DNA from: Bacteroidota bacterium
GTDB lineage: Bacteria > Bacteroidota > Bacteroidia > JACCXN01
Reading direction: 5' to 3'
NCBI GenBank assembly: GCA_013696965.1
Contig: JACCXN010000026.1
Span: 1 to 46,957 of the forward strand
Length of the DNA: 46,957 nt
How positions within the stretch are numbered: position 1 is the first letter of the stretch; every line of letters begins with the position of its first letter. Made by a program: the position numbers and the translations under genes. The notes under the pieces were generated by a model. It saw only the letters and a list, made by a program, of their open reading frames with translations, had not been told where the DNA came from and made no database searches. Positions 9,068-21,640 of the stretch are shown one piece after another.

Positions 9068-9385
9068 TATTCAAACTTTCAAAAAACTAAATCCATTATC
9101 ATTCCTAAATGATTGTGAGGAAAAGAATCTAAAAGATTGATTTTATTTTGAGGATAATGGATGCTAAAATGTGAAATTATAACCACATTTTAAATGATTT
9201 AGGATTTACCGAAACCCATTTAATTTTTAATTATTGATAGATTACTAAAATGGGTAAATGGACTTTAAAAATGGCTTAAGAAAAATGACTAAAGAGAAAG
9301 CACAAGGAATTTCTTTTGCTGTTTCCGCACTGGAAACTTTACATCCATAATGTATTGTATTATTACATTTGTGATTAAACAAGAG
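9068..9385. other. Gene-free stretch with one perfect inverted repeat
   Basis: No gene is recognisable in this 318-bp AT-rich stretch. The only clear structure is the inverted repeat TAAAATGTG (9165-9173) / CACATTTTA (9184-9192) with a 10-base loop, about 100 bp upstream of the T9SS cargo gene. It could be an operator, or a terminator for something lost upstream. The part after 9240 may be residue of the group II intron whose 3' end follows. Confidence 0.4.
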
Positions 9386-9461
9386 GAGCTGTGTGAAGGG
9401 AGACTTTCAAGTATGGTTATGTGAGAACGCAAGGGTGAGATTCCATTGGTGACTCGATTGG
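9386..9461 (+). ncRNA. Group II intron relic: domain V and probable domain VI
   Basis: The 34 bases 9386-9419 fit group II intron domain V. They open with GAGC (the AGC catalytic triad), form a nine-position lower stem with several G-U pairs, then a two-base AA bulge on the 3' side, a five-pair upper stem GAAGG/CTTTC and a GAGA (GNRA) loop. The closing base is A instead of C, and the bulge is AA instead of the usual CG or AC, so some decay is likely. Bases 9422-9459, ending GACTCGAT, can fold as a domain VI-like arm. No reverse transcriptase frame or 5' intron part is present upstream, so only the 3' end survives. Confidence 0.7.
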
Positions 9462-9801
9462 CAGATAATTTTAATTATTTCTGTCCTGCTATAATTTAGT
9501 AGCAAAATTTCTTTCGCTCAATAAATAAATACGTAGCTCGTGGAGATTCTCTTTCTACATGGCCATCTATCCAATCTCTATGTTTAGGATTGTTTAGTAG
9601 ATTTGAAAATTCAGAAATTTAATAATTTTTGACATCTTCATCTGCATTATTCATTTCTTCCCATTTGGATTCACTATTTTCCAAAACATAAATAATGTCT
9701 TCAAAATCTTGGCTTGTTCGCTTCCATCATTTTCACCACGACTTTTAAAGGCTTCAAATTTAGTGGCTACCAAATAGGGAGCACTAAGGATTTTCACTGT
9801 A

Positions 9802-9927
9802 CCTTTTCTGCATACCCGCAGGTGGGGCTGGTTTGCAGCGTTTATGTCCACCGGCACGAAAGGTAATAGAAAGCAATGACTTTTCAAAATGCACCAAGCA
9901 CCCCACTTGAGTGTAGCAGTGTTATCC
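9802..9927 (-). repeat. attC-like imperfect hairpin at the cassette end
   Basis: Read on the minus strand, GGATAAC (9927-9921) is followed by ACTGC, TAC and GTGGGG. The far end returns CCCCAC, GTA, one unpaired T and GCAG. The arms pair in blocks separated by unpaired bases, as in attC sites with extrahelical bases. In the circular form the far end would be completed by GTTATAG from the leading edge, opposite GGATAAC (five of seven positions pair). The length of about 130 bases is within the attC range. The sequence is too degenerate for certainty. Confidence 0.45.
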
Positions 9928-9932
9928 AGTTT

Positions 9933-16445: not shown

Positions 16446-17150
16446 TTATTCAAATCCTTTAAAATCAATTTGCGCTTTTTGGTAATCTTCAGGAATTCCA
16501 ATGTCAATAAAATAGCCACTTCCTGTATATCCTATTATTGTAAGATTCTTTAAATTTGGTTCAAAAAAATCTTTTTCCAATGAAAATTTTTCTGGCAAAT
16601 CAAATGCATTGAATTTTTTTCTGCGAAAAATATATACTCCCCCGTTAATCAGACCTTGGGTGTTTTCCCCTGTTTTTTCCTGGAATGCTATAACCCTTTT
16701 TTGATCATTAATTTTAACAGTACCGTACCTTGAAGTGTTAATCATGTTTCTTAAACATAAGCTGATATCAGCATTTTCCAATTGGTGGAAGTTGTAAAAT
16801 TCATTTAAATCAAGTTCCAGGAAAGTATCTCCATTTAAAATCAACACATTTTCTGTGGTGCATTTTTCTATAGCCTTTTTCAGCCCCCCCCCTGTTCCTA
16901 ATGGTTCTTCCTCCTTAGCATATACTATTGTTATATTTTCAAAGTAGGTTCCAAAATATTCAACTATAGCTTCAGATTTATATCCTACAGAAAAAATAAT
17001 TTTTTGAATGCCGAATTTCAATAAATACCTTACAAGGTATTCCAGAAATGGTTTTCCATTAACAGGCGCCATCGGTTTTGGAACATCACTCACAACCGAT
17101 TGAAGTCTTGTACCCAGCCCTCCTGCTAAAATTATGGCTTCTTTAATCAT
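16446..17150 (-). CDS. hddC: Sugar-phosphate nucleotidyltransferase (HddC-like)
   Basis: A 234-residue cytosolic enzyme with the nucleotidyltransferase signature LAGGLGTRLQSVVSDVPKPMAPVNGKPFLEYL and NGDTFLELDL. With gmhA- and hddA-like genes directly upstream, the likely reaction is guanylylation of D-glycero-D-manno-heptose 1-phosphate to GDP-heptose. From sequence alone the nucleotide could be GTP or another. Codons for Gly-Gly-Gly in GTGGGLKKA form a run of nine identical bases (C9 on the plus strand, 16884-16892), a possible slippage site in an AT-rich gene. It is the last gene of the glycan operon, 5 bp after gmhA. Confidence 0.8.
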   Translation of the reverse strand: MIKEAIILAGGLGTRLQSVVSDVPKPMAPVNGKPFLEYLVRYLLKFGIQKIIFSVGYKSEAIVEYFGTYFENITIVYAKEEEPLGTGGGLKKAIEKCTTENVLILNGDTFLELDLNEFYNFHQLENADISLCLRNMINTSRYGTVKINDQKRVIAFQEKTGENTQGLINGGVYIFRRKKFNAFDLPEKFSLEKDFFEPNLKNLTIIGYTGSGYFIDIGIPEDYQKAQIDFKGFE

Positions 17151-17155
17151 TCTTT

Positions 17156-17737
17156 TTATTGAAACAACTCATTTTCAATTATTTCACAAAGAATGTGGCC
17201 AATAAGTATATGCGATTCCTGAATTCTAGGAGTATCATTTGATGGAACTTTAATGAGATATTTACATAGTCCATTCATTTTACCTCCTGTTTCTCCCGTT
17301 AACCCAACAGTAACCAATCCTTTTGCGTTGGCAGTTTCAAGGGCCTTTAGTATATTAGGTGAATTTCCGGATGTTGAAATTCCAATTAAAATATCCCCTT
17401 GCTTTGCTGCAGCTTTCACCATTCTTGAATATACTTCATCAAAGGAATAATCATTTGCAACAGCAGTTAGATAGGAAGCATTTACATGAAGAGCTTCAGC
17501 ATTTAAAGGCTCACGGTCTTTGTAAAACCTTCCGGATAATTCAGCTGAAATATGCTGGGCATCGGCAGCAGAACCACCATTTCCACAAAAAAGTGCTTTC
17601 CCACCACCTTGAAAAACCCTAACCAGCTCATGGGCAACGTCCTGTATTATTTTAATCGTGTTTTCATTTTCAAGCAGCCTTACTTTTACATCAATTGAGG
17701 CTTGAATTCTGCTTTTAATAAGTGTTATATTGTCCAT
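17156..17737 (-). CDS. gmhA: Phosphoheptose isomerase (GmhA-like)
   Basis: This 193-residue SIS-domain protein carries FCGNGGSAADAQHISAELSGRF and the ISTSGNSPNIL loop, both typical of GmhA. GmhA turns sedoheptulose 7-phosphate into D-glycero-D-manno-heptose 7-phosphate, the first step of ADP- and GDP-heptose synthesis in the cytosol. Its start overlaps the end of the kinase gene by 13 bp, showing tight coupling. The family length is normal. The phosphatase GmhB is not encoded in the window. Confidence 0.88.
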   Translation of the reverse strand: MDNITLIKSRIQASIDVKVRLLENENTIKIIQDVAHELVRVFQGGGKALFCGNGGSAADAQHISAELSGRFYKDREPLNAEALHVNASYLTAVANDYSFDEVYSRMVKAAAKQGDILIGISTSGNSPNILKALETANAKGLVTVGLTGETGGKMNGLCKYLIKVPSNDTPRIQESHILIGHILCEIIENELFQ

Positions 17738-18747
17738 GTAGATAATCCTTCTTTTGTAAATGTATAGCGTTTAACACTGCCACCAAATTTTTCAATAACT
17801 TTTATTACGTTGTATCGGGTTGTTCCAGGACAATAAAATATCATAAAACCACCACCACCTGCACCTGAAATTTTTCCACCAGTTGCACCAGCTTGAATTG
17901 CTGATTGGTAAATTTCATCAATCAGTGGATTAGTTATTCCTCCAGCCATTTGTTTTTTGTGTTTCCATCCAAAGTCCAGGATTTCTCCTATTTGATGTAT
18001 CTGCCCGCGTAAAAGAGCCTCTTTCATCCTTACAGACTGCTCTCGTAAATTATGCATTGCATTGATTGAACTTTGGTTTTTATCGTTTACATTCTTTGAC
18101 TGCTGTTCAATAATTTTGCTTGAAAAACGGCTGGTTTGAGTATAAAATAAAACCAGGTTATGCTCCAGTTCACTTAAATATTGTTCTTTGATTCGAAGCG
18201 GGTTTACAATAACTTTATCATCTTTAGAAAACTCCATAAAATTGACGCCTCCAAATGTCGCAGCATATTGATCTTGTCTTCCGCCTGCCATTTTACAATC
18301 AACTCGTTCAATTTCATAAGCCAAATGAGCAATATCATATTCCCCCAGGGGTAATTTAAGCCATTCTGCAAAAGCGCCTAAAATTGCTACGACCAAAGTA
18401 GATGAAGTACCAAGGCCAGAACCAGCAGGGGCATCAACAAAAGTACTGAGTTTAAAAGACAAGGGTTTTTTGGTAAAATCCTTAACAACGCGGTTATACA
18501 CGCATTTTAAAAGATCAAGGTTCCCATTTAAAGTCAATTCCATAGCAGAATCGAGTTTTTCAAATTCATTTCTGTCGGCTACATTAAATATGATTTCACC
18601 TGTATCTAAAGGTTCAATTGTGGCATAAGCATATAAACTAACTGTGGCATTGAGGATTGCGCCTCCAAATAAATCACAGTAAGGGCTAACATCAGTTCCA
18701 CCACCTGCTAAACCAATTCTTAAAGGAGCTTTACTTCTAATAATCAT
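17725..18747 (-). CDS. hddA: GHMP kinase, D-glycero-D-manno-heptose 7-phosphate kinase-like
   Basis: A 340-residue GHMP-superfamily sugar kinase. The N-terminal APLRIGLAGGGTDVSPYCDLFGG, the ATP loop PAGSGLGTSSTLVVAILGA and the C-terminal GGKISGAGGGGFMIFYC are the three GHMP motifs. HddA phosphorylates heptose 7-phosphate at C1. A fucokinase-type specificity is the alternative for this fold, but the neighbours gmhA and hddC support heptose. It is preceded by a 49-bp gap after the GT4 gene. Confidence 0.85.
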   Translation of the reverse strand: MIIRSKAPLRIGLAGGGTDVSPYCDLFGGAILNATVSLYAYATIEPLDTGEIIFNVADRNEFEKLDSAMELTLNGNLDLLKCVYNRVVKDFTKKPLSFKLSTFVDAPAGSGLGTSSTLVVAILGAFAEWLKLPLGEYDIAHLAYEIERVDCKMAGGRQDQYAATFGGVNFMEFSKDDKVIVNPLRIKEQYLSELEHNLVLFYTQTSRFSSKIIEQQSKNVNDKNQSSINAMHNLREQSVRMKEALLRGQIHQIGEILDFGWKHKKQMAGGITNPLIDEIYQSAIQAGATGGKISGAGGGGFMIFYCPGTTRYNVIKVIEKFGGSVKRYTFTKEGLSTWTI

Positions 18748-18796: not shown

Positions 18797-19939
18797 TTAT
18801 TTCGAAGATATCTCAGAAATCACAGCTTCAATGTTTCTTACCATTTTATCCCAGGTGAATTTTTGCTTTTCAACTTGTATTCCATGGCTAAATTTTTGCT
18901 GATAATCCCCATCAAAAAATTGAATAATAGCATCAGAAATTGCTCGAGGATCAACAGGAACTACAAAACCAACTTTTCCATCAGGTACAAGTTCGGGAAG
19001 ACCACCAACATTGGTTACTATCATTGGTTTTTCAAAATGATACGCAATTTGTGTAACACCACTTTGTGTTGCATGTTTATAGGGTTGTACAACAAGATCA
19101 GAGGCACAAAAATAATCAACCACTTTTTCGTCAGGAATAAAATCGGTTTTTAATATCACCTGATTCTTTATTCCAAGCTCCTCAATTAATTGCAAATAGG
19201 GCGTTTTATCTGAATAAAATTCTCCGGCAACAATTAGTTTTAGTTTTTTGTCCTTCATCCTTGAATCAGAAAATGCATTCAATAGCAAATCCAAGCCTTT
19301 GTAATCCCTGATAAAACCAAAAAACAACAGATAATTGTATTCATCACTTATTCCTAATCTTGCACATGCTTCATTTTTTGAAATGGCAGCCCCAAAATTA
19401 TCAAAAAGAGGATGAGGGGAAATTTTTCTTGGCTTTGCTTTATCAAAAAAGTCAAGGTCTTTCAAAACAGAATCAGACATAGCAATAAATGCATCAACAG
19501 GTTTTAAAAAATAAGCAGTTAACTGCTTATCTCCCGGTCGGCTTTCATGGGGTATAACATTATCTAAAATGCAGGCAATTTTAGTTTTATTGTTCCTTTT
19601 TGCAATTCTTGCAATTGTTCCGAAACAAGGTCCCATAAAAGGGAGCCAGAATTTAAAAATTAAAATTTCAGGTTTTTCTTTTCTGATCCTGTTTCCAATT
19701 TTTATCCAATTTAAGGGATTAACACTGTTAACCAGCCTGGAAATTTTTAAATCATCAGGTGAAGGGGAATCCGAAAATTGTGTTTTTCCAGGAAACAGAA
19801 ATCCTGGGTATTGGATAGTAAAAGTATAAATTTCAGCCTTGTATCCTAGGTTCTGGAATTCTCTAATCAACCTTTCATTGAAAACAGCAAGTCCTCCCCG
19901 GAAAGGATGGGCCGAACCAACCAAAATTACCTTTTTCAC
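18797..19939 (-). CDS. Glycosyltransferase family 4 protein
   Basis: A 380-residue GT-B glycosyltransferase. The N-terminus SAHPFRGGLAVFNERLIREF has the donor-side glycine loop, and the C-terminal half has LLFFGFIRDYKGLDLLL, the LKTDFIPDEKVVDYFCASDLVVQPY segment and the GVTQIAYHFEKPMIVTNVGGLPE nucleotide-sugar region. It probably adds a sugar to a lipid-linked or surface glycan at the cytosolic membrane face. Its place between a GT2 gene and the heptose genes makes an activated heptose a candidate donor, but this is inference. Its start lies 2 bp after the GT2 stop, consistent with one operon. Confidence 0.85.
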   Translation of the reverse strand: MKKVILVGSAHPFRGGLAVFNERLIREFQNLGYKAEIYTFTIQYPGFLFPGKTQFSDSPSPDDLKISRLVNSVNPLNWIKIGNRIRKEKPEILIFKFWLPFMGPCFGTIARIAKRNNKTKIACILDNVIPHESRPGDKQLTAYFLKPVDAFIAMSDSVLKDLDFFDKAKPRKISPHPLFDNFGAAISKNEACARLGISDEYNYLLFFGFIRDYKGLDLLLNAFSDSRMKDKKLKLIVAGEFYSDKTPYLQLIEELGIKNQVILKTDFIPDEKVVDYFCASDLVVQPYKHATQSGVTQIAYHFEKPMIVTNVGGLPELVPDGKVGFVVPVDPRAISDAIIQFFDGDYQQKFSHGIQVEKQKFTWDKMVRNIEAVISEISSK

Positions 19940-19941
19940 GC

Positions 19942-20904
19942 TTACAGGTTTGTCTTTTTTGTAATTAAATAAGTGTTTCTTGTAGGCGAATTTCTTGAAA
20001 TAAGCTCGCCAAGAAACCCAGCCAAAAACAGTTGAGTTCCAAGAATAATAGAGGTTAGAGCAATGTAGAATAAGGGCCTTTGGGTTATTAAAGCTGCGGG
20101 AATATTATTGGCAACAAAATAAAGTTTTTGCCCCCCAAGCCAAAGTGTTATAAAAAAACCAGCCAAAAATATTAATGTGCCTAAAAAACCGAAAAAATGC
20201 ATTGGTTTTTTACCGAATCTAGAAACAAACATTATGGAAATTAAATCTAAAAATCCATTAATGAACCTTTCCATTCCAAACTTTGTGACTCCATACTTAC
20301 GCTCCTGGTGTGCCACTTCTTTTTCTGTAATATTAGAGAAGCCATTCCATTTAGCAATAACAGGTATATAGCGGTGCATTTCACCATAAACTTCAATGCT
20401 TTTTACAACTTCCTTTTTATAGGCTTTAAGACCGCAATTAAAATCATGCAAATTAATTCCGGACATTTTACGCGTTGCCCAATTGAAAAGCTTAGTAGGA
20501 ACAGTCTTGGTGAAAGGATCGTATCTTTTCTTTTTCCAGCCGGAAACCAGGTCATAGCTTTCATTTTTTATCATGAAATAAAGCTGGGGAATTTCATCGG
20601 GGCTATCTTGAAGGTCAGCGTCCATTGTAATAACTACTTCTCCACAAGCAGCTTCAAATCCAATATTAAGTGCTGCAGATTTCCCGTAATTCCTCCTGAA
20701 TTTTATTCCTTTAATGTCAGGATTTTGTGCAGATAACTCTTCAATTTGTTTCCAGGATGTATCCTTGCTACCATCATCAATTAAAATTATTTCATAGGAA
20801 AATTCATTTTCTTCCATTATTCTTTTAATCCACTGGGTAAGTTCAAAAAGGGATTCCTGCTCATTATAAAGCGGAATTACAACAGAAATATCTTTATTAA
20901 TCAT
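19942..20904 (-). CDS. Polyisoprenyl-phosphate-type glycosyltransferase family 2
   Basis: A 320-residue membrane GT2. VVIPLYNEQESL and the DADLQDSPDEIP motif are in the catalytic domain (about 1-230). Two C-terminal hydrophobic hairpins follow (FFGFLGTLIFLAGFFITLWL and a segment containing ALTSIILGTQLFLAGFL), as in DPM1/GtrB-like enzymes that load a sugar on undecaprenyl phosphate. The start ATGATTAA at 20904 overlaps the DUF4199 stop by 8 bp. A longer reading from TTG would add only five residues. It is the second gene of the glycan operon. Confidence 0.87.
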   Translation of the reverse strand: MINKDISVVIPLYNEQESLFELTQWIKRIMEENEFSYEIILIDDGSKDTSWKQIEELSAQNPDIKGIKFRRNYGKSAALNIGFEAACGEVVITMDADLQDSPDEIPQLYFMIKNESYDLVSGWKKKRYDPFTKTVPTKLFNWATRKMSGINLHDFNCGLKAYKKEVVKSIEVYGEMHRYIPVIAKWNGFSNITEKEVAHQERKYGVTKFGMERFINGFLDLISIMFVSRFGKKPMHFFGFLGTLIFLAGFFITLWLGGQKLYFVANNIPAALITQRPLFYIALTSIILGTQLFLAGFLGELISRNSPTRNTYLITKKTNL

Positions 20905-21433
20905 TCGAGTCTTCTTCAAAAGGTGATTTGCTATGCTTTAGGAAAGCAGCAGCAAGGAGTGAAATTATGATACCCCAAAAAAGTTTATTGGTAAATTCGG
21001 AAAATGAAAGTGATGAAATTGTAATCGCCTCAAGCTGTTCAATCATTTTATCATACAACTCTTCACTGAAAATCTGTGGCATTTGATCAGATGCTTGTTG
21101 CATTGCTTCCAATGACTCGGACCTTGTCATTTCAACAATTCCCGGATCTACTACTGTTCCGAAAATATAAACAAGTAAACCAAATAGGGAAGCAAAAATA
21201 AAAGTAATCATAAAGCCCATACCAAATGCCTGGCCATAGGTTATGAACCCTTCAAGGTTTTGATCCCGATGTTTTTTTATTCCAAGAATAATAAAAACAA
21301 TAGGAACCCAAGCACCTACCCAGCTGTAACTGCCCAATGGGTTGTATCCTAACATATAGATAATCAGGAAAATTGAGAATGCAACTACTCCCGCAATACT
21401 ACCATAATTTAAAGGTGTTTTAATATTCTCCAT
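20897..21433 (-). CDS. DUF4199 membrane protein
   Basis: A 178-residue integral membrane protein with about four helices: an N-terminal pair (GVVAFSIFLIIYMLGY and WVGAWVPIVFIILGI), a third around FGMGFMITFIFASLFGLLVYIFG, and a C-terminal LFWGIIISLLAAAFLKHS. This is the DUF4199 layout, a Bacteroidota family often found directly before a GT2 gene, as here. Its function is unknown. It is probably the first gene of the glycosyltransferase/heptose operon. Confidence 0.85.
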   Translation of the reverse strand: MENIKTPLNYGSIAGVVAFSIFLIIYMLGYNPLGSYSWVGAWVPIVFIILGIKKHRDQNLEGFITYGQAFGMGFMITFIFASLFGLLVYIFGTVVDPGIVEMTRSESLEAMQQASDQMPQIFSEELYDKMIEQLEAITISSLSFSEFTNKLFWGIIISLLAAAFLKHSKSPFEEDSND

Positions 21434-21479: not shown

Positions 21480-21510
21480 TTGTGTATTCAAATGTTATTT
21501 TCTATTTTTG
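21480..21510 (+). promoter_or_regulatory. Promoter of the SRP RNA gene
   Basis: TTG (21480-21482) and TATTTTTG (21503-21510) are separated by exactly 20 bp. They lie 4 bp before the first paired base of the RNA. This is the Bacteroidota -33/-7 arrangement, and the same spacing recurs before the fsa gene. Confidence 0.7.
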
Positions 21511-21514
21511 CACT

Positions 21515-21610
21515 GGGTAAGTCTTATACGACCAGCTCCTGTGAACTCCCCCAGGTCCGGAAGGAAGCAAGGGTAAGCAGTTGTAGCGGTGCGATATAAG
21601 TAGCTTACCC
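21515..21610 (+). ncRNA. ffs: Signal recognition particle RNA, small bacterial type
   Basis: About 96 nt. The ends GGGTAAG and CTTACCC pair, and the apical part contains the SRP signature GGTCCGGAAGGAAGCA, with the GGAA tetraloop and the asymmetric loop that binds Ffh. It is the 4.5S-type RNA that acts with Ffh and the receptor FtsY in co-translational membrane targeting. A T-run follows immediately (21612-21619). Confidence 0.92.
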
Positions 21611-21640
21611 ATTTTTTTTGCCTTTATTTTTGTTTTTATT

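Follow-up and report, generated by a model that had tools for sequence, protein, structure and literature searches.

The window, a 46,957 nt stretch of DNA, harbours on its minus strand an intact ORF of 234 aa (16446–17150) for a sugar-1-phosphate nucleotidyltransferase whose Pfam family is NTP_transferase (PF00483). The initial annotation had described this as a heptose nucleotidyltransferase gene, and NF049965 (HddC, D-glycero-D-manno-heptose 1-phosphate guanosyltransferase) is indeed the best of 43 models for it (9e-73, residues 3–225); its score of 244.6 bits, however, lies 55 bits short of the curated equivalog cut-off of 300, and the gene is therefore referred to here as HddC-like. The best solved relatives of the protein, 5xhw and 6jq8, are both named 'Putative 6-deoxy-D-mannoheptose pathway protein'. 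The product would be a putative guanylyltransferase acting on heptose 1-phosphate.

The genes upstream, also on the minus strand, comprise a GmhA-like sedoheptulose-7-phosphate isomerase gene with a SIS domain (17156–17737; TIGR00441, 195.9 bits, cut-off 209.45; PF13580), an HddA-like heptose-7-phosphate kinase gene of the GHMP type (17725–18747; NF049969, 446.3 bits, cut-off 600; PF00288 and PF08544) and two glycosyltransferase genes, one of group 1 (18797–19939; PF00534, PF13692) and one of family 2 (19942–20919; PF00535). The clustering with gmhA and hddA that characterises HddC is thus found here, with neighbours that are themselves matches below their cut-offs. The arrangement recurs in relatives: across 105 loci with an HddC match (the present locus included, out of 122 examined), a GmhA match is found in 76 and an HddA match in 70, these being counts in which orientation was not required and flanks were often cut off. 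Surrounding the cluster are 32 promoter-like sites, compared with 23.1 (sd 4.2) in shuffles, and four terminator-like sites, compared with 4.3, neither count being informative.

HddC would complete the GDP-heptose branch only, and the genome encodes, in addition, an HldE-type domain that scores over its cut-off, as well as a GmhB-like match elsewhere that does not (116.7 bits against 149.6). From the known pathways, loss of HddC should affect the GDP-heptose branch and, because of the HldE-type domain, should leave ADP-heptose untouched. The earlier description of the gene product as the last enzyme of the heptose pathway is hence narrowed to the former branch. With regard to RNA features, no tRNA is present in the window. 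A Bacteroidales small SRP RNA (RF04183, 104 bits) is located at 21508–21614, consistent with a Bacteroidota origin, and a match to the group II intron family RF00029 at 9384–9458 (42.1 bits, gathering score 40) sits in a region, 9068–9932, without listed ORFs of at least 80 aa, and may be a remnant.

A run of nine cytosines occupies positions 16884–16892 of the forward strand, flanked by G and T, and is the only G/C run of at least 7 nt in the window. On the coding strand it reads GGG GGG GGG, in frame, and specifies Gly87–89 within the motif LGTGGGLKKA, the run and its frame being as the initial annotation had them. The truncation predicted there is likewise borne out: removal of one base from the run leaves a product of 89 aa, and addition of one base a product of 113 aa, out of 234. 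The locus therefore displays two features by which contingency loci are recognised, namely a G/C tract of at least 7 within a reading frame and a product that is truncated when the repeat number changes.

The choice of codons is also as unexpected as had been suggested. In a genome sample of 446,957 bases, comprising the window and 20 further stretches of the same genome, GGG accounts for 975 of 7,875 glycine codons (12.4 %). Only one of the 49 Gly-Gly-Gly sites in this sample uses GGG throughout, and that is the site in question, for an expectation of 0.2 % per site. The G9 run is thus real and rare by codon choice, and a slip in it would be damaging.

Whether such a run is surprising depends on the model and the scale considered. 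Dinucleotide shuffles of the window (n=100) gave a mean of 0.95 G8 matches, with the observed number of at least 2 reached in 23 of them. Estimated from the genome sample, expected runs of at least 9 nt per window-sized stretch number 0.108 under an order 1 model and 0.006–0.023 under models of orders 2–5, whilst for the whole genome the corresponding values are 8.9 (order 1), 1.6–1.9 (orders 2–3) and 0.5–0.7 (orders 4–5). Observed in the genome, with counts derived by subtraction from overlapping pattern matches, are 42 G/C runs of at least 7, nine of at least 8, four of at least 9 and one of 10; by exact length, there are 33, 5, 3 and 1 runs of 7, 8, 9 and 10 nt, respectively, which is a steady fall without a peak. 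Given 42 runs of at least 7, the Poisson probability of four or more runs of at least 9 ranges from 0.0006 to 0.20 across seven extension probabilities (0.095–0.234), and from 0.008 to 0.06 where these lie between 0.136 and 0.187. Thus, the G9 run is improbable for a single window under the stricter models, yet it is one of four in the genome. Runs of this length are mildly over-supplied (four against 0.5–1.9 expected under orders 2–5), which counts against plain chance.

All eight of the other runs of at least 8 nt in the genome were read individually. The G10 run (contig C57, positions 2000–2009 of stretch L100) lies in frame within a CotH-like gene that possesses a type IX secretion tail. 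One G9 run, on contig C91, falls within a 142 aa frame on the minus strand (509–934 of stretch L104), where it precedes a secretion-tail domain; this frame consists of the tail only, with no long frame upstream, and is possibly a decayed or frame-broken gene. The remaining G9 run, on C103, lies in a 493 aa frame that has no Pfam match and begins with what appears, by eye, to be a signal peptide. As for the runs of eight, one of the two on C83 is in frame within a dehydrogenase E1/transketolase-type gene, the other C83 run and that on C14 lie in no frame of at least 60 aa, that on C20 touches only a 75 aa frame, and that on C70 overlaps frames of 97 and 338 aa. The 338 aa frame has no Pfam match at 0.001, and we take it, by eye, to resemble an RHS-type repeat protein. 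The four runs of at least 9 nt show a tilt towards exported or surface functions, albeit in a very small set; long tracts also occur outside surface genes, and several are in genes that may be exported.

Conservation of the run was assessed in relatives of the HddC-like gene. A first table held 115 aligned loci besides our own, 94 of them at ≥40 % identity. A search of the class then found 61 of 395 genomes, our own included, with matches at E ≤ 1e-50, and 31 further genes were added. The full table comprised 153 loci, in 147 of which the motif could be aligned; the six without the motif and 21 at less than 40 % identity were set aside. This left, besides our own, 125 relatives at ≥40 % identity, corresponding to 124 distinct sequences and 121 clusters at 95 % identity. 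Among the genomes covered, three including the present one belong to this family and order, each of another genus, so that the comparison is one between genera.

The G9 run is absent from all 125 of these relatives. Runs of G at the motif reach at most 2 nt in 89 of them, 3 in 19, 4 in five and 5 in ten, with a single example each of G6 (locus L190) and G7 (genome G113, loci L196/L166), the latter being in frame as GGG GGG GCA. The residues corresponding to Gly87–89 are Gly-Gly-Ala in 79 relatives and Gly-Gly-Gly in 46, and amongst the 46, GGG makes up 7 of 138 codons, with at most one per gene. The nearest relative by identity (62.5 %, aligned over residues 1–120 only) uses GGT GGC GGA, and the same-family relative (56 % identity) GGT GGC GCA, each with a longest G-run of 2 nt. 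The comparison of codon use at these glycines in orthologues, which the initial annotation had proposed, accordingly reveals a run that is not kept; a tract retained in relatives, which would support a contingency locus, was rejected as a description of this site, although a young locus could lack that feature.

The same motif was also sought in other genes. A pattern of Leu-Gly-Thr followed by G7 is found in 15 of 395 genomes of the class and 22 of 395 of the phylum, four genomes being common to both. As a backwards-pattern control gave about equal numbers of matches by hand count (18 compared with 15, and 21 compared with 22, respectively), there is no excess of the pattern as such. Five of the 31 pattern loci read have a nucleotidyltransferase match: our own, the G7 relative and, from a single distant genus, three genes with runs of G9 (L171, genome G560), G10 (L172, G673) and G8 (L173, G639) at LGTGGGLKK. 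The gene of this genus is a MurU-like nucleotidyltransferase, different from HddC; for the two of three genes that were scanned, MurU was the best model, below its cut-off. The glycines of L171 and L172 are all GGG, and in all three genes the glycine codons are in frame, with synonymous bases at the glycines or adjoining them accounting for the differences in run length. GTGGG motifs can therefore reach runs of this size.

Taken with the reading frame, the absence from the relatives examined and the peakless profile of tract lengths, the sequence supports the view that the G9 run is a lineage-specific series of synonymous codons that arose by drift within a glycine-rich motif, and we regard this as highly probable. 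In HddC-like nucleotidyltransferases, the GTGG(G/A) loop has two or three successive glycines and is therefore always encoded as GGN GGN followed by GGN or GCN; here every third position is G, and these positions would have drifted to that base, perhaps aided by mutational bias. A run so formed may be more prone to slippage than sequence on average, and the outcome of slippage would be a loss-of-function allele. Neither the sequence, the relatives nor the genome tract profile shows that the run is under selection or serves as a switch. Standing against drift are the four runs of at least 9 nt, in excess of the models of orders 2–5 and tilted towards exported or surface functions, and the single relatives with G7 and G6. 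The case is a caution: synonymous change can produce G9 in a glycine-rich catalytic motif, and finding such a run within a glycan gene does not on its own amount to evidence for switching.

Two technical or translational accounts fare worse than drift. The length of the run could have been misassembled or misread, homopolymers being well-known sites of indel errors and the genome being in 106 contigs; at a length of nine, however, the 234 aa frame is unbroken and can be aligned with relatives from end to end, and error was rejected as the main reading, being very improbable. Programmed transcriptional or ribosomal slippage, yielding a second product, occurs at long homopolymers in reading frames, of which G9 is one. 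Both one-base-shifted frames nevertheless end soon, and the run is not conserved in relatives, making slippage of this kind extremely improbable.

More probable than these two is phase variation, raised in the initial annotation, whereby slippage would switch HddC on at nine guanines and off at eight or ten, and so vary a surface glycan dependent on GDP-heptose. The surrounding glycan genes, the truncation caused by a one-base change and the mild genome-wide excess of long runs all speak in favour of such a switch, and the run exceeds the cut-off of 7 G/C given for Campylobacter in PMC6321876. According to the same source, 53 % of the poly-G/C tracts of 77 Campylobacter genomes, counted from 7 upwards, are at 9 and 26 % at 10. 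The poly-G contingency loci of that genus, the capsule genes cj1421 and 06810 among them, resemble the present case in having an in-frame G run in a glycan gene and a product truncated by a one-base change. They differ in that tracts there peak at 9–10, whereas in this genome the numbers fall steadily and the run is absent from the relatives examined. A further resemblance is that some Campylobacter jejuni capsule loci carry hddC, gmhA2 and hddA (13 of 18 loci in PMC5082957; PMC5808241). In the portions available of this literature, the genes that slip are those for methyl phosphoramidate transferases and not hddC, and no variable tract in hddC is described.

With G9 in none of the 125 relatives, no peak of the Campylobacter kind, and a conserved motif that provides G-rich codons in any case, the proposal of phase variation is not upheld, and we consider a switch unlikely. 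A narrower form of it, in which G9 would be a young, lineage-specific contingency locus switching a GDP-heptose surface glycan, partnered by a few G9–G10 tracts in exported or surface genes, appears quite unlikely. Were the G9 run nonetheless to vary, a lineage of the Bacteroidota would be switching its supply of a nucleotide sugar by slippage. The overall supply of such runs also speaks against switching, as the genome has five overlapping G9 matches, close to the median of 4.5 over 60 genomes (our own and relatives of its class), 26 of which have more matches than this genome. Three class relatives, G009, G020 and G054, have 191, 63 and 82 overlapping G9 matches, respectively, far above the median, and are better places in which to seek poly-G switching within the class.
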